From assembly GCA_018817425.1 (NCBI GenBank), contig JAHITX010000090.1:1-41146 (forward strand): a DNA stretch of 41,146 nucleotides. The letters run 5' to 3'. A program made the position numbers and the translations under genes. The stretch is from Pseudomonadota bacterium. Lineage in GTDB: Bacteria; Desulfobacterota; Desulfobacteria; Desulfobacterales; RPRI01. A model generated the notes under the pieces. The model searched no databases, was not told where the DNA came from, and worked only from the letters and a program-made list of their open reading frames with translations. Positions 544 through 26,518 of the stretch are shown piece after piece. Every line of letters begins with the position of its first letter. The stretch's first letter is position 1.

Positions 544-1626
544 ATGAAAAATATTAAAATAAATAAGTTATTCCTTTTTATATCTGTTTTGTTTTTATTT
601 CCAACTAATCTTATAGCCGGTATCATTGTCACAGCTAAAGGAATAAGTTTTTTTGAACCTGGAAGAGAAGTTATAGCAAGAGAGAGAGCCATTGATGAAG
701 CTAAAAGAGCTGCTCTGGAACAGGCAATCGGTTCTGCTGTTGAATCAAGTACAACGGTTGAAAATTTTGTTGTGATAAAAGACCAGATATTAAGCAGGAC
801 AGCAGGATATCTTAAAAACATAAAGGTTATCAAAGAAAAAAAAACCGACATTGGGACATTTGAAGTTGAAATCGAAGCGGATGTTGAAACATCGGCAATA
901 CTTGAAGATCTTGACAGATTTAAAAAAGTATTAAGCTGGCAAAAAAATCCCCGTATAAGTATCATAATCGATAAAGATATGGATAAAAAATATCTTCCTT
1001 CAGCCCGGAAATCAGCGTCTATTCTTGCCGATAAACTCAAACAGGGCGGGTTTAAAGTATTTAAATACTCTAAAGACCGTGAGTCTCAGATGGGCCTTTT
1101 GGTCAGCCTGTCTATAGAGCTTTCCTCAAGTCAGTCTTCATATCAGGATATGGATCTTTCAGTAAATGAAATCAGCTTAAGCGCAAACATTTACCGACCT
1201 GATGATGGAGAAATATTAGGCACGTCCAGTGCGGTAAAATCTCTTCCCGGAGAAAACAAGCTTATACTTATCGATAAAGGTGCAAAGTACTGTATTGATT
1301 CGATCTGGACCGACCTTCGGAGCAAGCTTGTACAAATATGGGAAAAAGAGCTTTACAGCGAAAGAGATATAAATATGATTATTAAAAATATCCCTTCTCA
1401 TGATAAAGCTCTTGAAATATCCAATGCTTTTAAATCCGATGTAAGTGGGATTCTTGATGCAAGCCTTGCAGGCTTTAAAAAAGGAACCGCTGAATTTAAT
1501 ATCAAATACAAAGGTTGGCCGGAACACCTGTTAAATGAAATGCAACTGTCATATTTTAAAAGAAAATATTTTAACCCAGCAGTTGAAAAAGTTGAAGGAA
1601 ACAAAATAATTATAAGAATGAATTAA
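544..1626 (+). CDS. Secreted FlgT-N-domain-like protein
   Basis: A 360-residue exported protein. I start it at the ATG at 544, because the only upstream in-frame start is a TTG at 529 and the ATG gives a clean signal peptide (MKNIKINKLFLFISVLFLFP, cleavage near LIA-G). Residues about 26-118 resemble the N-terminal domain of the flagellar outer-membrane protein FlgT: an AxGxxFF start, a long helix with RERAIDEAKRAALEQAIGSA, then VENF and SRTAGYLKNI. The rest (120-360) looks like the FlgT middle/C-terminal mixed fold. No flagellar gene is nearby. It is followed after 20 nt by a CsgG-like lipoprotein gene, so it is probably the first gene of an envelope operon. The exact function is unknown; the family call is by pattern recognition. 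Confidence 0.75.
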   Translation: MKNIKINKLFLFISVLFLFPTNLIAGIIVTAKGISFFEPGREVIARERAIDEAKRAALEQAIGSAVESSTTVENFVVIKDQILSRTAGYLKNIKVIKEKKTDIGTFEVEIEADVETSAILEDLDRFKKVLSWQKNPRISIIIDKDMDKKYLPSARKSASILADKLKQGGFKVFKYSKDRESQMGLLVSLSIELSSSQSSYQDMDLSVNEISLSANIYRPDDGEILGTSSAVKSLPGENKLILIDKGAKYCIDSIWTDLRSKLVQIWEKELYSERDINMIIKNIPSHDKALEISNAFKSDVSGILDASLAGFKKGTAEFNIKYKGWPEHLLNEMQLSYFKRKYFNPAVEKVEGNKIIIRMN

Positions 1627-1646
1627 TATGCAATCGGAGGCTGAAT

Positions 1647-3644
1647 ATGATTAAAAGGGCAATATATGTCGGGCTGATTTTTTTGCTGACTGTTTTCATG
1701 TTTTCTTGTGCTGCAGGAAAAAAGGATTATGAAGTCGGTATGCAATTACGCCAGGCAGGTAAATTTATGGATGCAATTTCCTATTTAGAAAAGGCTATTC
1801 AAAATGAACCGGATAATGCAGACTATAAACAAGCTTTATCGGAACTTAAGGAGAGCGTTATATCCGGGTATGTTGCAAATGCTTCAAAAACATTAAACGC
1901 TAAATCCCCTGTTACAATTGAATCTTTAAATTCAGCCAAATCCATTATATCAAAAGCAAAAGAAATTGATTCAAACCATCCTTCGGTAACAAAACTTTCA
2001 GATGAGATTAATAAATATGAAGAACAAATTATATCAAAAACAAAAAAATTATACGAAGAAGCCAAGACTATGCTGGCAGCGGAAGAATGGCTTGAGGCAA
2101 ATGCCGGCCTGAAACAGATTCAGGAAATATTTCCCAATTATATAGATTCATCCCAGCTTTTAGAGCAAACATCAGAAGAAGGCTCACAAGCTTTTTATAA
2201 CAATGCCAAGGTTCTTTTTGACAAAGATAATTATAAGGGGGCAGCAAAAAATCTTTATGATGCAATTTCCTTGAAACCTGATCACGAGCCTTCTTTGACA
2301 CTACTTACTGTAATAAAACAAAGGGATAATAAAAATTATTTTATTCAAAAAGGCAGACAAGCCGTTTCGGAACAGGATTGGACTACAGCACTTAAGGCAT
2401 ATAATAAAGCTTTGGAATATTCTCCAAACGACGGGACTTTAAAATCACTGATTGCCGCAGTTTCACAAAAACTTGGCACATATTATGTCAAAACAGTCAG
2501 AGACCAGGTGATGGATGGATGGCTTTTTAAGGCTTTCGAAACCTATAACCTGGCATTAAAAAATGTAGATGATCCCAATACAGCAGAATTCAGAAGTGTT
2601 CGAAATGAACTTGCAGCGAAAGCTAGTTCAATGGGCACTATGTTCAAAGATCAGAAAAAATATGGAGCTGCCTGGTTTTGGTATAGTAAGCTCAAAAGTA
2701 TTTCTCCGGATTATCCTGAAATTTTTTCAAATAATCTTGCAATGGAAGATAAGATAAGACAAAGAGTGCAAAAATCTATAGCTGTTTTTGATTTTTCCAG
2801 CCCTTCACAACATAAAGATTCCGGGATCATAGTAGCGAATAACCTCATAACCTACCTTTTTAAGAATGCAAGCGGAGATATCAAGATTCTTGAAAGAGAA
2901 AACTTAAAATCAATATTGGAAGAAATGAAGCTCGGTCAAATTGGAGTTGTTTCCGAGCAAACTGCAAAAGAGATGGGAAGAGTATATGGAATAGATGTCG
3001 CTGTCATGGGAAGTGTTTTACTATACCAGGTAGAAACATCCGTTTCTCAGGGAATAAAAACCACAAGATACCAGATAGGAACGGAAATTCAGGACAATAT
3101 TGAATACCTAAACTGGTCGGCCAGAAATCCCAATCCTACTCCGGGCCAGCTTGCATCTGCGCCTCCGGCAAAAATAACAACGCCTAAATATACTGAAAAA
3201 GATTATTCCGTATCCAATCATAAGAAGGTGGGCTTTGTTCAGCTTTCATTTAGGATTGTTGATGTTAAAACAGGAGAAAATATTCAGGTCAGAACTATTG
3301 AACGTAAGGAAACCGTTGAGGATGATACAAGCGCGGGTCTTCCGGAAGCCAAGGTTAAATACGATCCTCTTGTTATTCCGACAGATACCGAACTTCTTCA
3401 AAAAATGACGAATGAGGTGGTTGCGGAACTTGGCAGAGAAGCCTTAAAACCTTTAAGTAACCTTGAAAAAACATATTTTCAGGATGGTGAACAGTATTTA
3501 AAAAGAAGGGAAAGGCTTTTGGCTGCAGAGAGTTTTGTTAACTCCATTTTCGATGAAAAAATGAAAATGATTTTAGGATCTCCTCTTACAAAAAAAGCAA
3601 TGGAGCATCTTGATAATATCTTTCGTAACTATAAAGAGAATTAA
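1647..3644 (+). CDS. TPR and CsgG-like domain lipoprotein
   Basis: A 665-residue protein with a type II signal peptide: hydrophobic residues 5-19 and a lipobox FMFSC that would lipidate Cys21. Residues about 25-370 are helical repeats of TPR character (for example AISYLEKAIQNEPDN and ALKAYNKALEYSPND). Residues about 377-470 match the CsgG / curli-secretin-like fold: IAVFDFSS at the start, ILERENLKSILEEMKLGQ near 413, GVVSEQ, then IDVAVMGSVLLY near 450. CsgG is an outer-membrane export channel, and related folds occur in LpoB-type lipoproteins, so channel activity cannot be assumed. A GGAGG ribosome site lies 6-7 nt before the ATG. The stop is immediately followed by the next gene, consistent with co-translation. 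Confidence 0.78.
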   Translation: MIKRAIYVGLIFLLTVFMFSCAAGKKDYEVGMQLRQAGKFMDAISYLEKAIQNEPDNADYKQALSELKESVISGYVANASKTLNAKSPVTIESLNSAKSIISKAKEIDSNHPSVTKLSDEINKYEEQIISKTKKLYEEAKTMLAAEEWLEANAGLKQIQEIFPNYIDSSQLLEQTSEEGSQAFYNNAKVLFDKDNYKGAAKNLYDAISLKPDHEPSLTLLTVIKQRDNKNYFIQKGRQAVSEQDWTTALKAYNKALEYSPNDGTLKSLIAAVSQKLGTYYVKTVRDQVMDGWLFKAFETYNLALKNVDDPNTAEFRSVRNELAAKASSMGTMFKDQKKYGAAWFWYSKLKSISPDYPEIFSNNLAMEDKIRQRVQKSIAVFDFSSPSQHKDSGIIVANNLITYLFKNASGDIKILERENLKSILEEMKLGQIGVVSEQTAKEMGRVYGIDVAVMGSVLLYQVETSVSQGIKTTRYQIGTEIQDNIEYLNWSARNPNPTPGQLASAPPAKITTPKYTEKDYSVSNHKKVGFVQLSFRIVDVKTGENIQVRTIERKETVEDDTSAGLPEAKVKYDPLVIPTDTELLQKMTNEVVAELGREALKPLSNLEKTYFQDGEQYLKRRERLLAAESFVNSIFDEKMKMILGSPLTKKAMEHLDNIFRNYKEN

Positions 3645-3662
3645 TTGGTAGGAGTAAGAAAT

Positions 3663-5693
3663 TTGTTGATGAAAAGATTATCTTGCCTGCTGTCAATATC
3701 AGCCTGTTTATTGCTTATATTAGCTCATTATTCTTATGCTGCGCAGAAAAAGATTTTGGCAATTTTTAACCTTTCCGCAACAAATATCGAAGCCATGGGT
3801 TGCAATGGAGAAATTCTTCAGGCGCTTATTTCATCTATTGAAACCGACAAGAGCATTGATCTGTTGCCGAGAAGAGAAATTGAGGAGGTGCTTTATATAT
3901 CAGATATTGTTTTGGATAACTCTGAAAAAGCCGTGATTGAGGCAGGAAAAGCACTCGGAATAAATTTTGTTGTTTTTGGAGAAGTAACTAAAAAAGGATC
4001 TTTAATAATAGCACGTCTTAATTTGATGGATATTGAAGGTAAAACTATTATAAACAACTGGAGTGTTGTTTTCCCGAACAGCAATTCCATTCTAAAAAAA
4101 ATCCCTGAAATTGCAAAAGAGATCGGCGCTTCTCTTTCAAATCGAAAAAAAGCATCAACTATATCAGTAACTGAGACAGAATCGCTCCCATCATTAGATC
4201 TCGATTATCTCAATGTACTAAATGAAGGCGATTCGGTTGGTTTATCATGGAAAATAACTACCCAAAAATCACCAATATCCTGCAATATTTATCGTTCGGA
4301 AAACAGAAAAGGCCCTTACCAGTTTGTGGGCAAAACATCAGATACATATTTTAAAGACACCACGGTTAAGAAAGGGCAGTCATATTACTACAATATCGGA
4401 ATAATTCATGGAATCGAACCGGAGGTAAAAAGCTCTCACACTGCACAGATTTCAAATGTAGGGCAAAGAATACCGCATCCTCCTCTGGTTATGGGTATAA
4501 AAGGTTATATCAAAAGAGTGGGTATCAATTTAGTTCCATCTCTTAAAAATGAACAGGAATACTTTAATATAATAAAATATACTTTATACCGCCAGAAAAG
4601 TCCAAATGACTGGGAACATATCAAAACAATTGATTTGAAAAACAGGACAGAAACCAACCCGGTCTTGACAGTGTTTGATGAAAAAGATTTAAAAGATGGA
4701 ACAAATTATACTTATGCACTTTCAAGCACGGATGATTCAAATATCGAAAGCCCCCGTTCCGACCCTGTTTCGGTTTCTACAGTACAAACTCCTGTATTAA
4801 CTCTTGAGAAAGATAATCTATTAAGAAAAATAACGCTTTCCTGGAAATTTATTGAAAGCGCATCTGGTTATAATGTATACAGAAAAATTGATAACACGTC
4901 CTGGGAAAAAATAACCGATATCAAAGAAATCTTAACAACAAATTTTGCTGATGTACAAAACATGTCCGATGGGCAGCAGTATTTTTATCATATCACGGCA
5001 TATGACGATAAAAAGGAATCCGGCCCATCAAACGAAGTTAATGGAAAAACAAAGGACCTCCCCTCGTTTCCTGAAAATTTGCAATCTCAAGGTGTTTTTG
5101 CTAAATCAGTTAAAATAACATGGACTGCTTTAGAAGACCCGGATCTTGGCGGTTACAACATTTACAGGGGCATTGATTGTAATAATTTACAAAAAATTGC
5201 TTCAATTAAAAATTACAGATCAAACACTTATCTTGACAAAGGAGATGTCTTAACACCTTTTGAAGATGGCAAGATTTATTTCTATGCGGCAGCATGTTTC
5301 AACCTGTTTGATACCGAAGGAAAACTGAGCAAATGTATTAAGGCGGAGACAAAACCAAGACCGGCATCAGTTAAAGTACTGACGGCATCAGCTGCATCGG
5401 ACCATATTGTTATAAGTTGGAAAGAAAATTTTGAAACCGATATAGCAGTAAATCATTTATATAGAAAAGATGATCAAGCGTCATGGTCTAACTTGCAGGC
5501 GTTATCACCTGTTCAACTATGGTCTGAGATACAGCAGTTAAAACCGGGTCAGACTGATTATAAGGACTTTGACCTTAAAGCGGGAGGAAGTTACAGTTAC
5601 AGAATTATTTCAGAAGATAAAGACGGTCTTGAAAGTGATCCTGCGGAAACTCAGCCTGTGGCAAGTCCGATAGCAAACAAAGAGCAGTATTAA
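3663..5693 (+). CDS. CsgG-like protein with five fibronectin type III-like modules
   Basis: An exported protein of about 675 residues. The AGGAG at 3650-3654 is 8 nt from a TTG at 3663, which I use; an ATG at 3669 is the alternative. The signal peptide ends near SYAAQ. Residues about 25-170 carry a second CsgG/TolB-N-like module (KKILAIFNLSATN, LLPRREIEEVL, GINFVVFGEVTKKG). After that come five modules of about 90-100 residues with the FN3-like pattern ISWK...YNIYR...YFY: about 170-262, 268-371, 372-464, 464-561 and 562-675. FN3 arrays usually mediate extracellular contacts. It begins right after the lipoprotein stop, so the two are probably coupled. No known gene symbol. Confidence 0.72.
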   Translation: MLMKRLSCLLSISACLLLILAHYSYAAQKKILAIFNLSATNIEAMGCNGEILQALISSIETDKSIDLLPRREIEEVLYISDIVLDNSEKAVIEAGKALGINFVVFGEVTKKGSLIIARLNLMDIEGKTIINNWSVVFPNSNSILKKIPEIAKEIGASLSNRKKASTISVTETESLPSLDLDYLNVLNEGDSVGLSWKITTQKSPISCNIYRSENRKGPYQFVGKTSDTYFKDTTVKKGQSYYYNIGIIHGIEPEVKSSHTAQISNVGQRIPHPPLVMGIKGYIKRVGINLVPSLKNEQEYFNIIKYTLYRQKSPNDWEHIKTIDLKNRTETNPVLTVFDEKDLKDGTNYTYALSSTDDSNIESPRSDPVSVSTVQTPVLTLEKDNLLRKITLSWKFIESASGYNVYRKIDNTSWEKITDIKEILTTNFADVQNMSDGQQYFYHITAYDDKKESGPSNEVNGKTKDLPSFPENLQSQGVFAKSVKITWTALEDPDLGGYNIYRGIDCNNLQKIASIKNYRSNTYLDKGDVLTPFEDGKIYFYAAACFNLFDTEGKLSKCIKAETKPRPASVKVLTASAASDHIVISWKENFETDIAVNHLYRKDDQASWSNLQALSPVQLWSEIQQLKPGQTDYKDFDLKAGGSYSYRIISEDKDGLESDPAETQPVASPIANKEQY

Positions 5694-5740: not shown

Positions 5741-8700
5741 ATGAAATTGATTAAAAAATTGTTGTTCTGGACAACGTTCTGGAGCGGGATTCTTTTAATA
5801 ATTGCTCTGCTTATATCGCTTTTATTGCCACATATTATAAGCACTAAAGATCTTAAAACCAAAATAGTGGAGCAGGTTTCTTTCAGGATAGGCTATAAGC
5901 TCAAGCTCCACGATGTCGATATTTTACTATTTCCCCGACTTCACGCCGATATAAGAAACGCAGCAATATCGGTACCCGGTAATTTTTCAGTAAACATAAA
6001 CAGTGTCAAAGCATACCCTAAAATCTGGCCACTTCTTACCGGGGATATTAATATTTATAAGCTGTATATTGATAGCCTCAACATAAAAATAAATATTCCT
6101 GAAAAACTTCTTAATGAAAACGATTTTCAGATAAATACTGCTTTACGAAAAGTAGAAAAAAAGTTGTATGATTTTATCAGGAGCCGAACTGTTGAAAAAA
6201 CTGATATAGTTGTTGAAATCAGCAACGGTAATGTAGGGCTTTATAACGGTAGGCATCTTCGTTTCAATTTTACCAGTATATTTTCCCACATTATACTAAA
6301 ACCAAAACATATCAAAATAGCATTAGATGCTAAATCAAATATTACAGATAGTATATCGATAAAAAGCCAATATTACCCTGATAATACAAAAACTAAAGGA
6401 AATATCAGATTAAATAACTTAAATCCCAAACTGCTTTTTTCTTATCTTTATCCTGATTCTGATTTAAAGATTGATAATTCAAAAGCGGATTTAAGATTAT
6501 ATTTTTCGAAAAAAGGAGTTTTGAATTATTACTCAAACTTCGAAGGTGAAATCCCGGTTCTTTCGTTTAAAAGAAATAATGAAAATTTGATTCTAAAAAG
6601 CAGACATCTTTCCGGAAATATAAATATAAATGGAGAGAGAACTTCAATAAATATTGAAAAGCTGATTCTTGATAACACCGGCTCAATTTTTTCAGGAAAA
6701 TATATTGTACATATGCCGGATTCTTCGGTGCAGCTTGATCTTAAAGGAAAAGATATAGATATTAAAGATACAGGCAAGATTGCTCTTTTTCTTACAGGGA
6801 ACTCACCTACACCCCAATCGATATTTAATGTTTTAAAAGAGGGGAAAGTTCCGTCAATAAACATAACTGCCAAAGTACCCAATATTTCTGAGCTGGGAAA
6901 TATAAAGAACATATCTATAAAAGGAAAAGCTTTAAACATTAAATTATCTGTACCCAAACCATCGCTGCTGATTGAAGATATAAAGGCCGATGTAATGGTT
7001 TCGGGAGGAATCCTGGAGGCAAAAAATGCGGAAGGCAGGCTTGGAAATTCCATTGCTCAAAATGGAACTTTTAAACTTAGTCTTTTAGAAGACCATCATT
7101 TGCTTTACCTTGATGCTTTAGTGCATGCCGATCTTTCTCCACTTCCATCCATTCTTAAGCAGGTTGTTAAAAATGAGAGTTTTTTAAATGAGCTTTACTT
7201 AATAAAACAATGCGAAGGAAAAGCAGAAGGTAAATTAACTATAGATGACAAACCTGGGTCATATTTTCTAAAAGTGGATGTTTCAAAATTTGATGTAAAA
7301 GGTGTTTATAACCGTTTTTTAAATCCAATTTCTGTTAGCGGAAACAAGTTCTTTTTGGATAATTCAGTTCTTAAATTTACTGCTGCCAAAGCTATTTCCG
7401 GAAAAACTATTGTTTCAAATCTGTCTGCCGGGTTTAGTTTTGATAAAGATGATTCATTTAAAATTTTATCCGGGAAAACAACCATAGACTCCAAAGAGGT
7501 AAATCAGATTTTATTACCTTTTATAACTTATCAAAATTTGGGAAAACAACTTAATATCAAAAAAGGAACGGTTTCCTTAAATAATGTTGAATTAAAGGGC
7601 CCCCTTTTCATTCCTGCCAAATGGGTATTAACAACAGACGGCATAATGGAAAATATGATCGTTGATTGCAAATCAGTTTTTAAAGAAGCAATTAACATAA
7701 CAAACCTTAAATTTAGTGCTTCCCAAAACAACAGCTATCTTTATATAAAAGTTATTGACGCTAACTTAAGAAAAACTTTTATCCCGGATCTTTCTGCAGA
7801 ATTTGGGCTTGTAAAGAACTACCCCTTTAAAATTAAATCAAAACAAGCGCTAATAGATGTTAAAGAGATTAATTTGTTTACGCCGTATTTTCAATTACCA
7901 AAAACTGCCCAGGAAGAAATCAATATTCAAAAAGGAACTGCCAAATTATATAGCTTTGACTTAAAAGGGCCTTTATTAAATACTGATAAATGGCGTTTTG
8001 CAACTGCCGGCAAAATAGAAAATATGCTTGTTGATTATGAGTCTGTTTTAAAAGAACCTTTTAATATAGCAACTTTAGATTTTAGCGCATCCCGTAATTT
8101 AACAGCTAAAGGGCGTTTTGAAAGTAAATATAATATTGAATATGGATCTATTTCATCAGGCAAAAGCCATGCGACAATAAAAGGTGATATCAGCTTATCG
8201 CAAAAAGAATCGCGAGTGGATATTAGCGCTTTTTGTAAATCTCTATACTGGTTGGATATAAAAGAGATGATAAATCAGCCCGCTTTTAAAAGCTGTCCGG
8301 CAAAAAAATCTTTGAGTCCATTTGTAAAAGGCATTATCCGGGCGCATATAGATAGTTTTATATATGACGATTATGTGCTAAGCCCTGTTAATGCAGACAT
8401 CTTATTCGGACAAAAGAACATAAGTATTGTTGTTTCTGAAGCAAATATTTGTGGAATTTCATTGACCGGGAAAATTGAATCATGCCCAACAAAAGTAGAA
8501 TTTACAATAAATCCATTTGCAAAAGAGCAAGAGATTGAACCTTGTCTCAAATGCTTCTGGGAAGGCAAGCATCTTGCGACAGGGACTTATAATCTTAAAA
8601 GCAATATTTATTCAAAAGGAGAAGGAAAAGAAGTCTCAAAGCTGCTTTACGGAACTCTTGAATTTAATGCGAAAAAAGGAAGAATATACAGGCTTGGATT

Positions 8701-9166
8701 TCTTTCAAAGATTTTTGCTCTGCTCAATGTTACAGAAATATTTCGAGGCAAGCTTCCTGATCTTATAGGAGAAGGTTTTGCCTATAATACAATGATTATA
8801 GATGGAAAACTTGATAAAGGAAATTTTGTTGTAAGTAAATTTGTAATTGACGGCGCTTCAATGGCAATAGTTTGTACCGGTAATATGGATATTAGTAATG
8901 ACAGGGCAGATCTTATTGTTTTGATTTCACCTTTTAAAACCTTTGATCTTATAATTAAATATATTCCTGTGTTAAGCCAGATTCTGGATGGGAATATACT
9001 ATCTATCCCTTTCAGAGTAGTTGGCAAACTCGAAGATCCGGATGTTATTCCGCTTTCGCCTACGGCAGTTGGAACCGGCTTGATGAATATACTGCAAAGA
9101 ACTATATCCCTTCCTGTTAAAATAATGCAGCCTGTCTCTCCGAAAAAAGAAGTTTTGTTAAAATAA
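5741..9166 (+). CDS. AsmA-family (AsmA/YhdP-like) giant envelope protein
   Basis: 1141 residues with one N-terminal membrane anchor (about 12-32) and then a very long beta-rich periplasmic region. The first 110 residues have the AsmA pattern: VEQVSFRIGYKLKLHDVDI, LFPRLHADIRNAAISVPGNF, then VKAYPKIWPLLTGDINIYKL. The last about 190 residues have the AsmA/YhdP C-terminal pattern, with FNAKKGRIYRLGFLSKIFAL and DISNDRADLIVLISPFKTFD. Members of this family bridge inner and outer membranes and move phospholipid. An internal tandem duplication of about 100 residues is visible (564-662 and 685-786, sharing KGT...LKGPL...KW and SAS(Q/R)N). It lies 47 nt after the FN3 gene and may be in the same operon. 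It ends one base from a converging small gene. Confidence 0.8.
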   Translation: MKLIKKLLFWTTFWSGILLIIALLISLLLPHIISTKDLKTKIVEQVSFRIGYKLKLHDVDILLFPRLHADIRNAAISVPGNFSVNINSVKAYPKIWPLLTGDINIYKLYIDSLNIKINIPEKLLNENDFQINTALRKVEKKLYDFIRSRTVEKTDIVVEISNGNVGLYNGRHLRFNFTSIFSHIILKPKHIKIALDAKSNITDSISIKSQYYPDNTKTKGNIRLNNLNPKLLFSYLYPDSDLKIDNSKADLRLYFSKKGVLNYYSNFEGEIPVLSFKRNNENLILKSRHLSGNININGERTSINIEKLILDNTGSIFSGKYIVHMPDSSVQLDLKGKDIDIKDTGKIALFLTGNSPTPQSIFNVLKEGKVPSINITAKVPNISELGNIKNISIKGKALNIKLSVPKPSLLIEDIKADVMVSGGILEAKNAEGRLGNSIAQNGTFKLSLLEDHHLLYLDALVHADLSPLPSILKQVVKNESFLNELYLIKQCEGKAEGKLTIDDKPGSYFLKVDVSKFDVKGVYNRFLNPISVSGNKFFLDNSVLKFTAAKAISGKTIVSNLSAGFSFDKDDSFKILSGKTTIDSKEVNQILLPFITYQNLGKQLNIKKGTVSLNNVELKGPLFIPAKWVLTTDGIMENMIVDCKSVFKEAINITNLKFSASQNNSYLYIKVIDANLRKTFIPDLSAEFGLVKNYPFKIKSKQALIDVKEINLFTPYFQLPKTAQEEINIQKGTAKLYSFDLKGPLLNTDKWRFATAGKIENMLVDYESVLKEPFNIATLDFSASRNLTAKGRFESKYNIEYGSISSGKSHATIKGDISLSQKESRVDISAFCKSLYWLDIKEMINQPAFKSCPAKKSLSPFVKGIIRAHIDSFIYDDYVLSPVNADILFGQKNISIVVSEANICGISLTGKIESCPTKVEFTINPFAKEQEIEPCLKCFWEGKHLATGTYNLKSNIYSKGEGKEVSKLLYGTLEFNAKKGRIYRLGFLSKIFALLNVTEIFRGKLPDLIGEGFAYNTMIIDGKLDKGNFVVSKFVIDGASMAIVCTGNMDISNDRADLIVLISPFKTFDLIIKYIPVLSQILDGNILSIPFRVVGKLEDPDVIPLSPTAVGTGLMNILQRTISLPVKIMQPVSPKKEVLLK

Positions 9167-9167
9167 A

Positions 9168-9332
9168 TTAATCCATACAAATAGCGGTTTCAATTTCGCG
9201 GATGTTATTTAATGTATCATTTTTTTCTTTTTCGGAAAGGTCTGCGTTGTTAAGGCGTATTTTCAGGGCAAGAAGAATCATTTCATTTCTGTATTGCTCA
9301 CAAGTGTATTTATTGTTTTTATCTTCTTTCAT
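9168..9332 (-). CDS. Small acidic/lysine-rich protein, 54 residues
   Basis: An open frame from ATG 9330-9332 to TAA 9168-9170. The protein begins MKEDKNNKYTCEQYRNEMIL and continues through LSEKEK and an IREIETAI helix, so it is predicted to be almost entirely helical, with Cys11 and Cys52. It fits exactly between the stop of the AsmA-family gene (one base gap, converging) and the next minus-strand gene, and the composition is like a real soluble protein. The upstream ribosome site is weak. Function unknown; I would expect homologues in related Desulfobacterota, but have not tested this. Confidence 0.6.
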   Translation of the reverse strand: MKEDKNNKYTCEQYRNEMILLALKIRLNNADLSEKEKNDTLNNIREIETAICMD

Positions 9333-9388
9333 AATCTATAAAACTCTGAAATTAAAAACAGAGAGCATAATATATCCACCATCATTGA

Positions 9389-10138
9389 TTAAACACGGCC
9401 GATTTTTTTCATAGTATCCCTGAATACTTTATAAAAAAATTCATGATCGGTTAATCCGCGGCTGAAGATTTTACCGAAATCGTTAATATTTTTTAAATTT
9501 ATTATGAGGTTAACGCTTTTTTGAAATGCAGTCATATTATCCATAGTGCGAAACCTGTCGCTTAATAGAGTAACAAATATATTACGTCGTGTTGAAATGG
9601 GCAGGCGTTCGAGATTAAACAATACAGGGTTGGCATCCGGATTGGGGTTTTCGAATTTTTCGTTTAATATAATTACGTCATAAACATGATAACGCATCTT
9701 TTTCATCACATCTCTTCCGTTTTTTGCCACTGTAATGGTATATTCCATCAGATTAAGCGTATCTTGTATTGTTTTTCTAAATGCAGGATCTGATTCGCAA
9801 ACAAGAGCTGTTTTTCCTTCTTCTTCTATAAAATCAAAAGGTTTGTCAGCGGCATCATATGATTCTGATGAGGCAGATTTGTCTGTGTCGGATTCATCCG
9901 AGACTGCTTCATCAAACGAAAAGCTTTCATCTAAGCGGGCTTCATTTATTGAATTGGGGGCAGGCTCGTCCTGGGTTTTTAAATCATCATTATCTGTTTT
10001 AATAGTAGTATTTATCGGGATCTTATTTTTACATTTTGGACATGCAATAAATTTTAGTTCCGAAGGAATTTTTTCATCGGCAACCCTGAACCTGCTGTTG
10101 CATTTGTCACAGTTTATATCCATGGTGTCTTTTTTCAT
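9389..10138 (-). CDS. Zinc-ribbon (MJ0042-type) protein with degenerate receiver domain
   Basis: 249 residues. The N-terminus has a zinc ribbon of the MJ0042 / zinc_ribbon_5 type: CDKC (10-13) and CPKC (33-36), with FRVADEKIP between them. An acidic, Ser-rich linker (about 48-105) follows, then a CheY-like receiver fold from about 109 (TALVCESDPAFRKTIQDTL). The usual phosphoacceptor Asp is replaced: the strand YDVIILNEKF has Asn159 where receivers have Asp, and I see no clear conserved Lys. It is therefore likely a pseudo-receiver not controlled by phosphorylation. The start may be ATG 10138 or ATG 10123 (MDINCDKC): a GGGGG run touches the first and is about 15 nt from the second. It lies downstream of the pilT/pilU-like genes, separated by a MITE-like element. 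Confidence 0.7.
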   Translation of the reverse strand: MKKDTMDINCDKCNSRFRVADEKIPSELKFIACPKCKNKIPINTTIKTDNDDLKTQDEPAPNSINEARLDESFSFDEAVSDESDTDKSASSESYDAADKPFDFIEEEGKTALVCESDPAFRKTIQDTLNLMEYTITVAKNGRDVMKKMRYHVYDVIILNEKFENPNPDANPVLFNLERLPISTRRNIFVTLLSDRFRTMDNMTAFQKSVNLIINLKNINDFGKIFSRGLTDHEFFYKVFRDTMKKIGRV

Positions 10139-10174
10139 CCCCCTAATTATGATAAACTTTAGAAACTGTCAACT

Positions 10175-10316
10175 GAGCCACTTTCAAAACGTTTCAGTTT
10201 GATCAAGCTCAAGGCGGGCGAAAATTTCAACCACAGGAATACATTGAGTATTTCGAGGATTGAAATTTGAGCCCAACGCAGAGATCGGTCAAAATGGGAC
10301 GTTTTGAAACTGGCTC
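10175..10316 (-). mobile_element. 142-bp MITE-like palindromic element, copy 1
   Basis: The element runs from GAGCCACTTTCAAAACG on the left to an inverted match on the right whose complement reads GAGCCAGTTTCAAAACG, with one mismatch in the first 18 bases. The two halves remain partly complementary along the whole length, so a single strand could fold into a long imperfect hairpin. It is flanked by direct repeats AACT (10171-10174 and 10317-10320), read as a 4-bp target-site duplication. It is about 96% identical (6 differences by eye) to the inverse complement of 21583-21724. It encodes no protein. Strand is assigned as opposite to copy 2. Confidence 0.85.
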
Positions 10317-11490
10317 AACTTTTATTTCTTTTTCTTGCATAACCGCGGTCAATTTCAAGATCTTCAATATCGGTTGTTTTTTCTCCTCTTGAGCTTTTAA
10401 CTGTATCGATTCCCCGTCCTACAACTCCTTTACGTGAAGCATAAGAGATTGCAGTTTCTTCAGAAATAAGGCTCTTGCTATAAAGGTCTACGATGAAGTC
10501 ATCAAAAGTTATCATTCCGAAGGGCTTGCCTGCCTGCATAATTTCATAAAATGTTTTATCGTCAGACTCTCCGTTTAATATTATGTCTCTGACCCGTAAA
10601 TTGGTGCCGAGAATTTCAAATGATGCTATACGGCCACCATCAGCTTTAGGCAGCAGCCTTTGGCATACTATCCATCGAATTGTATCAGCGAGACGAATTC
10701 GTATCTGGTTTTCTTCTTCTTTGGGGAACATGCCAAGTATGCGGTTTATCGTTGAGCCGGCATCAATTGTGTGAAGAGTTGAAACTACCAGATGCCCTGT
10801 TTCAGCGGCACTAAGAGCTATTTCAATACTATCCCTGTCTCTCATTTCACCCACAAGAATCACTTTTGGAGCCTGCCTTAAAGCTGCTCTTAAACCGTTT
10901 ACGAATGAGTCAAAGTCAATACCTAACTCACGCTGGTTAAAGGTGGCTTTTTTATGAGGATGTTGGTATTCAATTGGGTCTTCAAGAGTAACAATATGAA
11001 CGGATTTGTTTTCATTTATATACTCAAGCATAGCGGCAAGAGATGTTGATTTGCCGGTACCGGTTGCTCCGGTTACAAGAACGATGCCGTTTCTTTCCAT
11101 TGCTATTTTATAAAATACTTCGGGAAGATCCAAGCCATCTATGGTAGGGACTTTTGTTTCAAGACGCCGCAAAACTATTGAATAATTTCCTGATCTGGCA
11201 AAGATATTTACCCTGAAGCGAGCTTTGCCGGGAAGGCTATAGGATAAATCGCAGGAACCTTCCCGCAAAAGAGTTTCGGTTAGACGATGTTCCTGATTGA
11301 TAAGATTTAATGCCATTATTTCAGTCTGGAAGGGTGTCAATGCTTCAAACTTAGGTGTAATATCAATGCTTATAAGTTCTCCTGAGCTTTCAACTTGCAT
11401 TGGCTTTCCAACCGTGAAATTTAAGTCGGACACATCTTTTTGAGCATCGATCATACTTGTCAAAATATGGTCTATTTCTTGTTTTCTCAT
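10315..11490 (-). CDS. pilU: Type IV pilus retraction ATPase, PilU-like
   Basis: 391 residues, secretion-ATPase (GspE/PilT) superfamily. Visible motifs: Walker A GATGTGKSTS, an Asp-box with VTLEDPIEYQHP, Walker B VILVGEMRDRDSIE, and His-box TGHLVSTLHTIDAG (written in the gene as GHLVVSTLHT). It powers pilus retraction together with PilT. Its gene lies 17 nt downstream of pilT; it is longer than PilT with an extra charged C-terminal tail, which fits the PilU branch, although assignment between PilT paralogues is not certain. AGGA lies 7 nt before the ATG. The TGA stop is shared with the end of the MITE-like element; removing the element would recreate the same stop (AGT TGA). Confidence 0.85.
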   Translation of the reverse strand: MRKQEIDHILTSMIDAQKDVSDLNFTVGKPMQVESSGELISIDITPKFEALTPFQTEIMALNLINQEHRLTETLLREGSCDLSYSLPGKARFRVNIFARSGNYSIVLRRLETKVPTIDGLDLPEVFYKIAMERNGIVLVTGATGTGKSTSLAAMLEYINENKSVHIVTLEDPIEYQHPHKKATFNQRELGIDFDSFVNGLRAALRQAPKVILVGEMRDRDSIEIALSAAETGHLVVSTLHTIDAGSTINRILGMFPKEEENQIRIRLADTIRWIVCQRLLPKADGGRIASFEILGTNLRVRDIILNGESDDKTFYEIMQAGKPFGMITFDDFIVDLYSKSLISEETAISYASRKGVVGRGIDTVKSSRGEKTTDIEDLEIDRGYARKRNKS

Positions 11491-11507
11491 GGCTTGATCC
11501 TGTAAGT

Positions 11508-12590
11508 TTATGCGTCAGTAAAATCTGCCGGCGGATTCTTCAATAGCGGTCTGAATTTGGCTTTTTCATTTGCTTTTGCATATGCATCATCTGCGCTGAT
11601 CCAGCCCTTGTTATACAGCTCCATTATAGCGTCATCCAATAGCTGCATACCGTATTTTTTACCTGTTTGTATCATAGATGCTAGCTGATGTGTTTTCGAT
11701 TCTCTGATAAGGTTACGGACGGCTGGAGTTCCTATCATAATTTCAAGTGCGGGACAACGAGCTTTAATATCGACTCTTTTAAAAAGAACCTGAGCGACAA
11801 TTGCTCTTATTCCATCGGATAAAGTTGAGCGAATTTGCGCCTGTTCGTTTGATGGAAATACTTCTATTATACGGTCAACCGTTTTTGCGGCGCTTGAAGT
11901 ATGCAAAGTTGCAAAAACGAGATGGCCGGTAGATGCAGCTTCAATAGCAAGAGATATTGTTTCAAGGTCGCGCATTTCGCCTACAAGTATAATATCCGGG
12001 TCTTCACGTAAAGCACCTCGAAGGGCAGCAGTAAATGATTTTGTATGTATGCCGACTTCTCTGTGGTTTACAATACACCCCTGACTTTTATGAACAAACT
12101 CAATGGGATCTTCAACAGTGATAATATGATCTCTTCTCTGTCTGTTCGCAACATCAACAATTGCAGCAAGAGTTGTTGATTTACCGCTTCCTGTAGGTCC
12201 TGTAACAAGAACAAGTCCTCTTGGGAGTAGAGCAAGCTTTGATATTACTGCAGGTAGCCCAAGTTGTTCCGCCGTCATTATAGTATTCGGAATTTCCCTG
12301 AAAACGGCCCCTATTCCGTATTTCTGCATGAAAAAATTGGCACGGTAACGGGCAAGTCCGGGGATTTCATATCCGAAATCAAGATCTCCCGTTTCTTCAA
12401 ATTTTTTAATTTTTTCTTCTGGTGTTATTTCATATAACATACTTCTTAATGTATCTGAATCCAGCTCTTTATATTTGACTCTTTCTATATCCCCTCTTAT
12501 CCTGAGTGCAGGAGGTTGCCCTGAAACAAGGTGAAGGTCGGAAGCGCCCTGCTCATTCATCAATTTAAAAAAAGCATCAATTTTTGCCAT
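11508..12590 (-). CDS. pilT: Type IV pilus retraction ATPase PilT
   Basis: 360 residues, the normal PilT length. Motifs in order: N-terminal MNEQGASDLHLVSGQPPALR, Walker A GPTGSGKSTT, Asp-box ITVEDPIEFVHKSQGC, Walker B DIILVGEMRDLETI, His-box TGHLVFATLHTSSAAKTVDR, and a C-terminal QLLDDAIMELYNKG segment. A hexameric cytoplasmic motor that depolymerises the pilus for twitching motility. GGGAG lies 5 nt before the ATG. The related pilus platform gene pilC is about 13 kb away in the window, so the pilus genes are scattered here. Confidence 0.93.
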   Translation of the reverse strand: MAKIDAFFKLMNEQGASDLHLVSGQPPALRIRGDIERVKYKELDSDTLRSMLYEITPEEKIKKFEETGDLDFGYEIPGLARYRANFFMQKYGIGAVFREIPNTIMTAEQLGLPAVISKLALLPRGLVLVTGPTGSGKSTTLAAIVDVANRQRRDHIITVEDPIEFVHKSQGCIVNHREVGIHTKSFTAALRGALREDPDIILVGEMRDLETISLAIEAASTGHLVFATLHTSSAAKTVDRIIEVFPSNEQAQIRSTLSDGIRAIVAQVLFKRVDIKARCPALEIMIGTPAVRNLIRESKTHQLASMIQTGKKYGMQLLDDAIMELYNKGWISADDAYAKANEKAKFRPLLKNPPADFTDA

Positions 12591-23304: not shown

Positions 23305-23345
23305 TTGGAAATTGCGGCTTTTTTGGTGAAAAACTGTTTCAGGTC

Positions 23346-23618
23346 CTACACTGCATTTTTTAGGTTTTTACCGGCTTTGAATTTTACAACATTACATGCT
23401 TTGATTTTGATTGCTGCGCCGGTTTGGGGATTTCTACCCTTACGAGCAGCGCGTTTTGTTTTAGAGAATGTTCCAAAACCAACAAGAGTAACTTTGCCGT
23501 CTTTTGATTTTAAAGCTTTTGTGACATTTTTCATAAATGAATCCAGCGCTGCAACAGCAGCAGTTTTTGTGATTTTTGTATCGGCAGCTATTGCATCAAC
23601 TAATTCTGCTTTTGTCAT
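23346..23618 (-). CDS. hup: HU-family DNA-binding protein
   Basis: 90 residues, the standard HU length. MTKAELVDAIAADTKITKTA gives the helical dimer core, and GFGTFSKTKRAARKGRNPQT contains the beta-arm with the family signature (GFGTF...R.GRNPxTG), ending in FKAGKNLKNAV. A nucleoid protein that bends DNA. AAGGAG lies 8 nt before the ATG. Single gene converging with leuA (41 nt apart). Confidence 0.95.
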   Translation of the reverse strand: MTKAELVDAIAADTKITKTAAVAALDSFMKNVTKALKSKDGKVTLVGFGTFSKTKRAARKGRNPQTGAAIKIKACNVVKFKAGKNLKNAV

Positions 23619-23645
23619 GTACTATTCTCCTTTTTTGGGGGGATA

Positions 23646-23700
23646 ACTATACCAAAAAAAGCCGCATTTGCACAATATCTTAATATAGCATAAGAGTCAA
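23646..23700 (-). promoter_or_regulatory. Candidate HU promoters
   Basis: Two overlapping candidates on the minus strand. The first is TTGACT (complement of 23695-23700), 17 nt, TATTGT (complement of 23672-23677). The second is TTGTGC (complement of 23670-23675), 18 nt, TATAGT (complement of 23646-23651). Either gives a short 5' leader before the HU ribosome site. Confidence 0.45.
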
Positions 23701-25209: not shown

Positions 25210-26421
25210 TTATCCTCCTATTGCGCCGGCCATTTTAAATATCGGAAGATACATTGCTATAACAAGACCTCCGAGTGTGACACCTAAAAACACCAGCATA
25301 AATGGTTCAATAAGAGACATGAGGTTTGCAACCGCCTGATCAACTTCTTCATCATAGAAATCGGCAATCTTTGAAAGCATGGCATCAAGGGCTCCGGTAG
25401 ATTCGCCTACAGCAATCATCTGACATACCATAGAAGGGAAAATGCCGCTTTCAACTAAAGGTTCTGACATGGTACGACCTTCCGAAATCCCGGAACGCAC
25501 ATCATATATGGCTTTTTCAATTACCTTGTTACCCGATGTTTTAGCAACTATATCAAGAGCTTCTAATATTGAAACTCCGCTTGAAAGCATGGTTGACATT
25601 GTTCGTGTAAATTTAGCTACGGCAACTTTACGCAATAAAATACCAAATGCTGGAACTTTAAGGAAAAAACCATCAAGTGCATACCTGCCTTTTTCTGTTT
25701 TGGCAATTCTCTTATAAACTATTACAAAAAGAATAATTGCTATTATAAGATAAATTATTTTTTGTTTAACAAATTCGCTCATAGCAACAACAATCTGGGT
25801 TGGCATAGGAAGTTCCCCTCCAAAATCTGAAAACATCTGCTGGAATACCGGAATAACAAAAACAAGAATTACTATAAGCACTACAAAGGCGATAATAAGA
25901 GTTACTACCGGATAAACCATGGCGCCTTTTACCTGTCCTTTAAGTTTTGCCGCTTTTTCTATATATGCAGCAAGCCGCTGTAAAATAGTATCGAGAACAC
26001 CGCCTGTTTCTCCTGCTGCAATCATGTTTGTAAAAAGATCGTCAAACTGATCAGGATATTTTTTCAAAGCATCGGCTAAAGTTTGACCCCCTTCAACAGA
26101 TTCTTTTATCTTCTTGAGCATAAGTTTGAAGGTCTTGTTTTCTTGCTGGGAGTAAAGAATATCCAGGCATTGGACAATTGGAAGACCCGCATCGATCATT
26201 GTGGAAAATTGCCTGGCGAAAATAATTATATCCGAATCCTTTACCTTAGGCTGTAAAAAAGCAACATTTTCGAAAATATCTTTAGGTTTTTCTTTGATTT
26301 TGATGGGTGTAAGCTTTTGAGCATTAAGTCTGTTTTTTACTATATCTATACTGGAAGCTTCTATCTCTCCTTTTTGGATCTGGCCTCTTTTGTTCCGTCC
26401 TTTCCATTGATAAACAGGCAT
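25210..26421 (-). CDS. pilC: Type IV pilus inner-membrane platform protein PilC
   Basis: 403 residues from ATG 26421, which has GGGAGGG about 6 nt upstream; the open frame extends to 26466 but without a site. Two GspF domains: first about 65-190 with FARQFSTMIDAGLPIVQCLD and MIAAGETGGVLDTILQRLA, second about 268-395 with FTRTMSTMLSSGVSILEALD and MIAVGESTGALDAMLSKIAD. Three to four membrane helices (about 165-195, 215-240, 370-395). The N-terminal MPVYQWKGRNKRGQIQKGEI is typical. PilC anchors the PilB/PilT motors to the pilus base. Confidence 0.93.
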   Translation of the reverse strand: MPVYQWKGRNKRGQIQKGEIEASSIDIVKNRLNAQKLTPIKIKEKPKDIFENVAFLQPKVKDSDIIIFARQFSTMIDAGLPIVQCLDILYSQQENKTFKLMLKKIKESVEGGQTLADALKKYPDQFDDLFTNMIAAGETGGVLDTILQRLAAYIEKAAKLKGQVKGAMVYPVVTLIIAFVVLIVILVFVIPVFQQMFSDFGGELPMPTQIVVAMSEFVKQKIIYLIIAIILFVIVYKRIAKTEKGRYALDGFFLKVPAFGILLRKVAVAKFTRTMSTMLSSGVSILEALDIVAKTSGNKVIEKAIYDVRSGISEGRTMSEPLVESGIFPSMVCQMIAVGESTGALDAMLSKIADFYDEEVDQAVANLMSLIEPFMLVFLGVTLGGLVIAMYLPIFKMAGAIGG

Positions 26422-26518
26422 ACTTGACCCTCCCATTGCTATTTTGGTCATATTGTGAAAAATCAACCAGAACTATATAAAATTCATCGTGGAACAAAAA
26501 AACATAAAGTGTTAATTA

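Follow-up and report, generated by a model that had tools for sequence, protein, structure and literature searches.

What do a FlgT-type protein (P0001), a tetratricopeptide repeat (TPR) lipoprotein with a CsgG-type domain (P0002) and a CsgG-like protein with fibronectin type III (FN3) modules (P0003) do together, when their genes are adjoined by neither flagellar nor curli genes? The question is raised by a cassette of three exported-protein genes at the start of contig JAHITX010000090.1 from a bacterium of the Desulfobacterota, of which 41,146 nucleotides (hereafter the window) were analyzed. The tight packing reported in the first-pass annotation was confirmed: P0001 and P0002 are separated by 20 bases, and P0002 and P0003 by 18 (TTG start) or 24 (ATG start). 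The TTG, in frame at position 3663 and eight bases after an AGGAG motif, is a possible alternative start of P0003. Promoter and terminator scans of the locus gave no operon-defining excess over shuffled sequences, and Rfam had no match in the window.

The proposal made here is that the products of the three genes build a ring platform beneath the outer membrane, from the kinds of domains found in the Vibrio H ring (FlgT/FlgO/FlgP) and independent of a flagellum. The identity of the products as ring-type proteins is well supported, and the platform, taken alone, is considered probable. The complete chain, a non-flagellar, H-ring-like outer membrane collar docking an inter-membrane, probably lipid, transporter, is the preferred reading and is held tentatively, with somewhat less than even confidence.

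The three genes form a real conserved unit and are more than a chance arrangement, because their order is kept in other genomes. Relatives of P0001, P0002 and P0003 (here P1, P2 and P3) were examined at the best 80 of 120 P0002-related loci in named genomes, 23 of which belong to Alteromonadales or other Gammaproteobacteria. An upstream flank of at least 1.5 kb was present at 74 loci, a downstream flank of at least 2.5 kb at 66, and both at 65. P1 was found in 68 of the 74 and P3 in 64 of the 66, and the order P1-P2-P3 was kept in 59 of the 65, in Desulfobacterota as well as Alteromonadales. The first-pass annotation had named two findings that would speak against its grouping, orthologues never occurring together and a lack of CsgG or FlgT similarity; all three genes stand together at these 59 loci, and both similarities were found by domain and fold searches. 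Six loci (L070, L079, L084, L086, L092, L132) were counted without the full trio, although a separate look at L070 placed P1 just upstream. In a set of 17 relative loci, P1 always stood together with P2 (17/17), followed by P3 at 14; P3 was absent from two, and one ended with its contig. The divergence of P1, P2 and P3 was correlated (0.97, 0.93 and 0.94 over 31 loci), values which are inflated by common descent.

A P0002 homolog over most of the length was present in 8 of 10 genomes of the genus (including the window's own) and in 10 of 49 other genomes of the order. In an even sample of 395 Desulfobacterota genomes, 23 carried P0002 at E<=1e-40, the match being partial in six. In the tree, the P2 proteins from Gammaproteobacteria fall into a single supported group (100/99), which under midpoint rooting is nested in the diversity of Desulfobacterota; this nesting suggests one transfer.

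P0002 was described at first as a lipidated TPR-CsgG protein, and the sequence data agree with this: Pfam cut-offs were passed for TPR models and for CsgG (44 against 20.8 bits), and the conserved cysteine of the presumed lipobox (Table 1) points to lipidation. The AlphaFold2 monomer model (49 alignment rows, mean predicted local distance difference test (pLDDT) 88.6, predicted TM-score (pTM) 0.58) consists of a TPR superhelix, an alpha/beta domain (residues 376-603) and three C-terminal helices. The alpha/beta domain is predicted to contain a single very long beta-hairpin (451-483/509-539; helical tip), with N484, W490, A505 and P506 invariant in this region; none is predicted at the position of the second CsgG hairpin (TM2) in the monomer model. 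The first 50 Foldseek matches listed for the whole model were TPR proteins, with no XCC0632/PqiC-type chains among them. Matches of the C-terminal domain were obtained with VIA, which re-aligned Foldseek's own candidates. The nearest were the middle domain of FlgT (FlgT-M; 8z5n, Z 14.8, 147 residues at 2.6 A; 3w1e, Z 14.6), followed by PelC (5t10, Z 14.3), PelBC (13.2) and GNA1162 (4hrv, 13.2), with CsgG (6lqh) at Z 11.4 (4.6 A over 165 residues) and LpoB, of the same fold class, at 10.2.

P0001 alone matched FlgT_N at E 1.7e-4 and 22.5 bits, under the Pfam cut-off of 28.8. In its family FlgT_N was matched by 41 of 44 members at E<=0.1 (best 3.2e-12), and weak FlgO matches were seen in 4 of the 44. 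FlgT also headed the Foldseek list of the predicted P0001 model (pLDDT 83.9, pTM 0.66), with 3w1e at E 3.1e-10 (390 columns, TM-score 0.27, root mean square deviation (rmsd) 16.4), followed by FlgT of the LPHT ring (8z5n) at E 1.6e-9, again with a low TM-score. By VIA, residues 27-264 aligned with FlgT at Z 10.1 and an rmsd of 11.3, on a level with other families, and XCC0632/PqiC-type chains were among the matches listed for the model. These data bear out the original description of P0001 as FlgT-like.

Another match of the P0001 family profile, at E 7.1e-9, was to a 171-aa protein annotated as "Lipoprotein, putative", chain C of 9hmf. According to excerpts of PMC12222027, the 9HMF entry represents the periplasmic scaffold of the Campylobacter (C. 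jejuni) motor, and ring formation in this family accompanies an insertion in the SHS2 fold, between its helix and second strand. Judged by length and name, chain C would be FlgP. In the P0001 model 21 residues (69-89) lie between the helix 42-68 and the strand 90-100, with a pLDDT of only about 55-67.

The P0003 family contains fn3 in all 35 members, and other Pfam matches were to CsgG (8), LpoB (3), FlgO (2) and TolB_N (2). P0003 itself did not match the CsgG family of Pfam. Its N-terminal domain aligned with the CsgG-like domain of P0002 with a HHalign probability of 85.1% (E 6.2e-6). Both parts of its first description, CsgG-like and FN3-containing, were recovered in this way, while the count of five modules is a reading by eye of the repeated pattern YR...G.Y.Y, with one individually significant fn3 stretch in Pfam. 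Searches of the single cassette proteins against the PDB with phmmer gave just TPR and FN3 matches, or nothing. In one metagenome-assembled genome the P3 gene (L057:8871-10705) is split into two ORFs (361 and 203 aa), by a sequencing error or as a pseudogene.

According to excerpts of the structural literature, PelC, PqiC relatives, CsgG and FlgT chains assemble into rings beneath or within the outer membrane. Since these are the families matched, ring formation by the cassette proteins is a reasonable inference by analogy.

Domains of this kind also occur in secretion systems. Open reading frames (ORFs) of at least 100 aa number 29 in the window, and 28 of these were scanned with Pfam (the ORF at 23305-23646 was outside the scan; part of the scans were made at E<=1e-8). 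No curli or flagellar family was found among the 28, in line with the earlier remark that no curli subunit or flagellar gene adjoins the cassette, and CsgA, CsgB, CsgE and CsgF partners were also absent from them, in a search limited to the window and not extended to the rest of the genome. A curli system was rejected on the lack of curli families in these 28 ORFs and on the better fit of the P0002 domain to FlgT-M and PelC by VIA. A more general CsgG-type secretion pore in the outer membrane, exporting protein or polysaccharide as PelC/PelB does, could account for the CsgG score of P0002, for the PelC and PelBC matches and for the long beta-hairpin, which lies at about the position of TM1 in CsgG. 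The union of TPR with a PelC-type domain is, in addition, reminiscent of the pair PelB (TPR) and PelC. However, the one long hairpin predicted has a hydrophilic second arm and ambiguous hydropathy and is unaccompanied at the TM2 position, curli genes are lacking in the ORFs scanned, and no polysaccharide synthase was recognized in the recurrent clusters scanned. A secretion pore appears unlikely.

The genes that recur beside the cassette point in another direction. Among ORFs flanking the 80 loci, clusters were formed by LPP20-like proteins (44 loci, 22 gammaproteobacterial), GNA1162-like lipoproteins with a beta-helix (26 loci, 8 gammaproteobacterial), a MltC-like SLT transglycosylase (22 loci, all Gammaproteobacteria of the Alteromonadales), the MlaE permease (19 loci, 16 gammaproteobacterial plus L067, L068 and L069) and MlaD, a mammalian cell entry (MCE) protein (15 loci, 14 gammaproteobacterial plus L069). 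A cluster of ATP-binding cassette (ABC) proteins from 20 loci includes unrelated ATPases. MlaE was found at 16 of the 23 gammaproteobacterial loci, in three arrangements, and was not in the examined flanks of the other 7. The genes MlaE-ABC-MlaD are directly upstream in Catenovulum, downstream in the Alteromonas group, and in a divergent block in Pseudoalteromonas, Colwellia L094 and L129. In Desulfobacterota, the MlaE transporter was present on the cassette contig within about 12 kb at L067, L069, G033, G045 (=L068), G209 and G319. The linked MlaD proteins (318-346 aa) have an N-terminal MCE domain and C-terminal matches to coiled-coil models.

Some neighbors were observed besides these. GNA1162-like lipoproteins are fused to a right-handed beta-helix at L067:5551-7686, L118:12819-15575 and L051:12624-14789. 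Small exported proteins of about 95-130 aa (clusters C9, C34 and C23) directly follow P0003 at 33 of the 80 loci (18+10+5), e.g. L098:14749-15150, L067:14022-14309 and L112:7396-7830; none is present in the window, and the one that was scanned had no Pfam match. Loci L051, L055 and L068 contain SLH-TPR, FecR, CHASE2-cyclase or amidase (Amidase_3) genes in varying sets.

The first-pass annotation had suggested an outer membrane-associated assembly, perhaps one that exports or anchors a surface structure. The first half of this reading is supported by the invariant cysteine and the ring-family domains; the second half has no direct support, the recurring neighbors being GNA1162-like, LPP20, murein-enzyme and MlaE-MCE genes and, for the window, the AsmA/YhdP-like gene. 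Surface fibers, adhesins and secretion substrates were not among neighbors recurring across distant genomes, whole genomes not having been searched. A collar or anchor for an appendage such as a pilus or filament would fit with FlgT being an appendage-ring protein, as it is described in source excerpts, with the FN3 arms of P0003, and with two PilT-family ATPases (10315-12590) and a PilC-like gene (25213-26466) in the window. The pilT genes, however, are on the opposite strand more than 4.6 kb away and are not in the recurring clusters, no fiber subunit was recognized at the loci examined, and flgI was missing in 19 of the 39 genomes with the cassette (the window's genome has it on another contig). 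An appendage anchor is considered quite unlikely.

The cassette-linked MlaE proteins were used to build a profile (A7, threshold E<=1e-38), which separates them from ordinary MlaE: 19 of 39 carriers had a match at E<=1e-38, and the next best was 1e-31 or weaker. A7-type MlaE was present in 52 of 395 genomes of the Desulfobacterota sample, 12 of 23 P0002 carriers against 40 of 372 others (Fisher 3.6e-6, uncorrected for relatedness); the P0002 and A7 counts come from two 395-genome samples taken as the same draw. Ring-type genes were then counted with profiles of P1, P2, P3, FlgT_N, LPP20 and GNA1162. At least two were found in 14 of 35 A7-MlaE regions and in 0 of 20 ordinary MlaE regions (p 8e-4, uncorrected for relatedness). 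In genomes without P0002 the A7-MlaE regions still had at least two in 7 of 18, against the same 0 of 20 (p 2.5e-3). Three P0002-less loci (L167, L169, L170; L184 is similar) show a compact, operon-like order of FlgT_N protein-GNA1162-CsgG-like-SLH-TPR-LPP20-MlaE-ABC-MlaD, in which the CsgG-like gene is a weak match (E 2e-7 to 2e-4). Ring-type proteins are thus enriched beside one MlaE/MCE subfamily.

A cell-wall regulator or tether of the LpoB/Tol-Pal type, acting at the outer membrane to control the enzymes of murein synthesis or hydrolysis, was considered as well. LpoB shares the fold class, SLT transglycosylase, Amidase_3 and SLH-TPR genes are neighbors, and a class A penicillin-binding protein is encoded in the window, 30 kb away. 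Such a role would leave the linked MlaE/ATPase/MCE genes unexplained, and the murein enzymes are lineage-specific, the SLT cluster being confined to Alteromonadales; it is regarded as improbable.

The window itself differs from the Alteromonadales loci in its neighbor. The set of MlaE permease, ATPase and MCE genes is not present in the window, where the cassette is followed after 47 bases by an AsmA/YhdP-like gene (Table 1). AsmA-like proteins are inter-membrane phospholipid bridges (the title of a cited reference names YhdP as one), and a lipid-bridge partner is plausible for the cassette in the window. At L069 and L071 a different long gene occupies the +3 position; its N-terminus in L069 is weakly YhdP-like (E 0.0014, far under the cut-off), and in L069 a DUF1318 gene comes after it.

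Several results weigh against the docking of a transporter in a FlgT-like collar, besides the uncorrected relatedness noted above. The FlgT match of P0001 has a TM-score of just 0.27, and HpaA-like, CsgG, LptE, PelC, XCC0632 and FlgT chains all lie within about 2 Z units (VIA, Z 10-12) for its middle domain. A7-type MlaE is lacking in 20 of the 39 carriers, among them the window's genome, which has two MlaE genes, both ordinary and located elsewhere (best E 1.2e-23), and all seven same-genus carriers that were searched. Fewer than two ring-type genes were found in 21 of the 35 A7-MlaE regions, and two of the 35 (L186, L187) contain the cassette itself. The AsmA-like neighbor is shared with just 2 of the 80 loci (L060, L061; cluster C46), so it was rejected as a fixed fourth member. 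CHASE2 and FecR were rejected as specific partners, since 5 of the 20 control regions also have CHASE2 genes adjoining their ordinary MlaE.

With these points taken into account, the collar reading can be described as follows. P0002 would be held in the inner leaflet of the outer membrane by its lipid anchor, with a C-terminal domain that forms a ring and a TPR arm that extends into the periplasm. P0001 may form a second, FlgT-like ring stacked on P0002, and P0003 would contribute FN3 arms together with CsgG-like domains. This stack would act as a collar for a transporter that crosses the periplasm and carries lipids or another hydrophobic cargo. For Alteromonadales and several of the Desulfobacterota, the transporter would be the dedicated MlaE/ATPase/MCE system, with the coiled-coil arm of the MCE protein docked in the collar; in the window it is perhaps the adjacent AsmA/YhdP-like bridge. 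Murein enzymes (SLT or amidase) at some loci could open the wall for the transporter. The transport role is inferred from gene neighborhood only, and sorting to the outer membrane, the lipid nature of the cargo and any direction of its movement are likewise presumptive.

Table 1. Positions in the window of the cassette genes, their domains and the adjacent AsmA/YhdP-like gene
Feature	Position	Strand	Remarks
P0001, FlgT-type exported protein	544-1626	+	360 aa; signal peptide read by eye, no lipobox
LPP20/FlgT_N-type N-terminal domain of P0001	619-888	+	residues 26-115; FlgT_N family matches
FlgT-M/CsgG/PelC/LptE-type middle domain of P0001	940-1359	+	residues 133-272; VIA Z 10-12
P0002, TPR lipoprotein with C-terminal CsgG-type domain	1647-3644	+	665 aa
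Presumed lipidated Cys21 of P0002	1707-1709	+	Cys in 49/49 aligned relatives
Predicted TPR superhelix of P0002	1725-2768	+	residues 27-374; Pfam and model
FlgT-M/PelC/GNA1162/CsgG-type domain of P0002	2766-3461	+	residues 374-605; VIA
Predicted long beta-hairpin with helical tip inside the CsgG-type domain of P0002	2997-3263	+	residues 451-539; model
P0003, exported, CsgG-like N-terminal domain and FN3 modules	3669-5693	+	674 aa from ATG
CsgG-like N-terminal domain of P0003	3744-4184	+	residues 26-172 used in profile; HHalign
Five FN3-like modules of P0003	4206-5648	+	boundaries by eye; fn3 in 35/35 family members
AsmA/YhdP-like gene	5741-9166	+	PF13116 E 1.4e-13, 50.1 bits (cut-off 46); 47 bases downstream of cassette

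The downstream genes of the window are ordinary (AsmA-like, PilT twice, DivIVA, branched-chain amino acid, tetrapyrrole and others). The two PilT-family genes, of the PilT/PilU type, are adjacent and lie beside the DivIVA-like gene. At the contig end, positions 24-220 belong to a dispersed repeat with nine copies in the own genome, including this one, at 99% identity, and the assembly probably broke there.

Two other loci of the same genome contain related proteins. A second cluster (L003/L006; G000:C80, ~8138-12557) has a FlgT_N-like protein of 375 aa and two CsgG-type lipoproteins, and a similar trio adjoins an A7-type MlaE at L155. At G000:C131:17300-19100 (L001, L142) a canonical-type CsgG, a lipoprotein of 116 aa, presumably DUF4810, and a GNA1162-like lipoprotein are arranged like an operon; a phmmer search with this CsgG found no match in the PDB. 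The GNA1162 protein at C131 is the sole one of the genome, and an own-genome GNA1162 partner for the cassette was rejected.

If the collar reading is true, ring proteins so far known as accessories of flagella alone also have a role outside the flagellum, and a system with several candidates for docking becomes available for the question of how MCE/AsmA bridges meet the outer membrane. The reading also gives a functional hypothesis to protein families conserved together across phyla, one open to testing in marine bacteria that can be cultured (Alteromonas, Catenovulum, Pseudoalteromonas). A wider version, in which stacked FlgT/LPP20/PelC-CsgG/GNA1162-type rings are the outer membrane port of an MCE/AsmA lipid conveyor in Desulfobacterota and Alteromonadales, and the H ring and basal disk are flagellar recruitments of the same ancient kit, is doubtful. 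In open-licence PMC papers no full text was found on such a system; the cassette is classed here as one of ring proteins outside the flagellum, for which an MCE/AsmA partner is possible.

Compared with known systems, the cassette resembles FlgT and CsgG in part of its domains and does not correspond to either system as a whole. P0002 shares with curli CsgG the CsgG-type domain and, by sequence, its lipoprotein nature, but is closer to FlgT-M and PelC, lacks a predicted second hairpin, and stands in a window where no curli gene was found in the ORFs scanned. With PelC/PelB export it shares a PelC-type domain (Z 14.3) and a TPR arm, but the two are united in one lipoprotein and no pel-type genes were recognized nearby. 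The CsgG-DUF4810-GNA1162 operon at C131 also combines CsgG-type and GNA1162-type lipoproteins, but is a separate locus without a FlgT-type, TPR-CsgG or FN3 protein.

The Vibrio H ring, located at the outer membrane, is composed of FlgT and FlgO together with FlgP (excerpts of PMC6504787). FlgT-type and LPP20-type domains and the expected outer membrane location are shared with this ring and with the FlgP basal disk of Campylobacter, as is, for the H ring, the TolB-N/CsgG class of domain, which apparently includes FlgO (2/35 P0003 and 4/44 P0001 relatives gave weak FlgO matches). Unlike the H ring, the cassette locus has no flagellar genes, its carriers often lack flgI, and it includes a TPR-lipoprotein fusion, an FN3 protein and linkage to an MCE-type transporter; a flagellar H ring proper was rejected on locus content and on the absence of flgI from 19 of 39 carriers.

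For the transporter, a precedent is given by PqiABC and Brucella MpcEFDA, in which an MCE needle makes contact with a lipoprotein ring of eight subunits (excerpts of PMC10897342 and PMC12436622), and MlaE/ATPase/MCE genes are paired with ring lipoproteins in Brucella Mpc and XCC0632, as described in excerpts. Elongated MlaD bridges of Veillonella show that a periplasm-spanning MCE protein may do without MlaA/MlaC (excerpts of PMC10665443). An MCE transporter and a ring-forming outer membrane lipoprotein receiving its coiled coil would, judging from the Pqi and Mpc excerpts, be common to Pqi/Mpc and the cassette. The window's genome differs in having no transporter of the A7 subfamily form, and the loci described here differ from Pqi/Mpc in having two to five distinct ring-type proteins, with TPR, FN3, FlgT_N and LPP20 parts.

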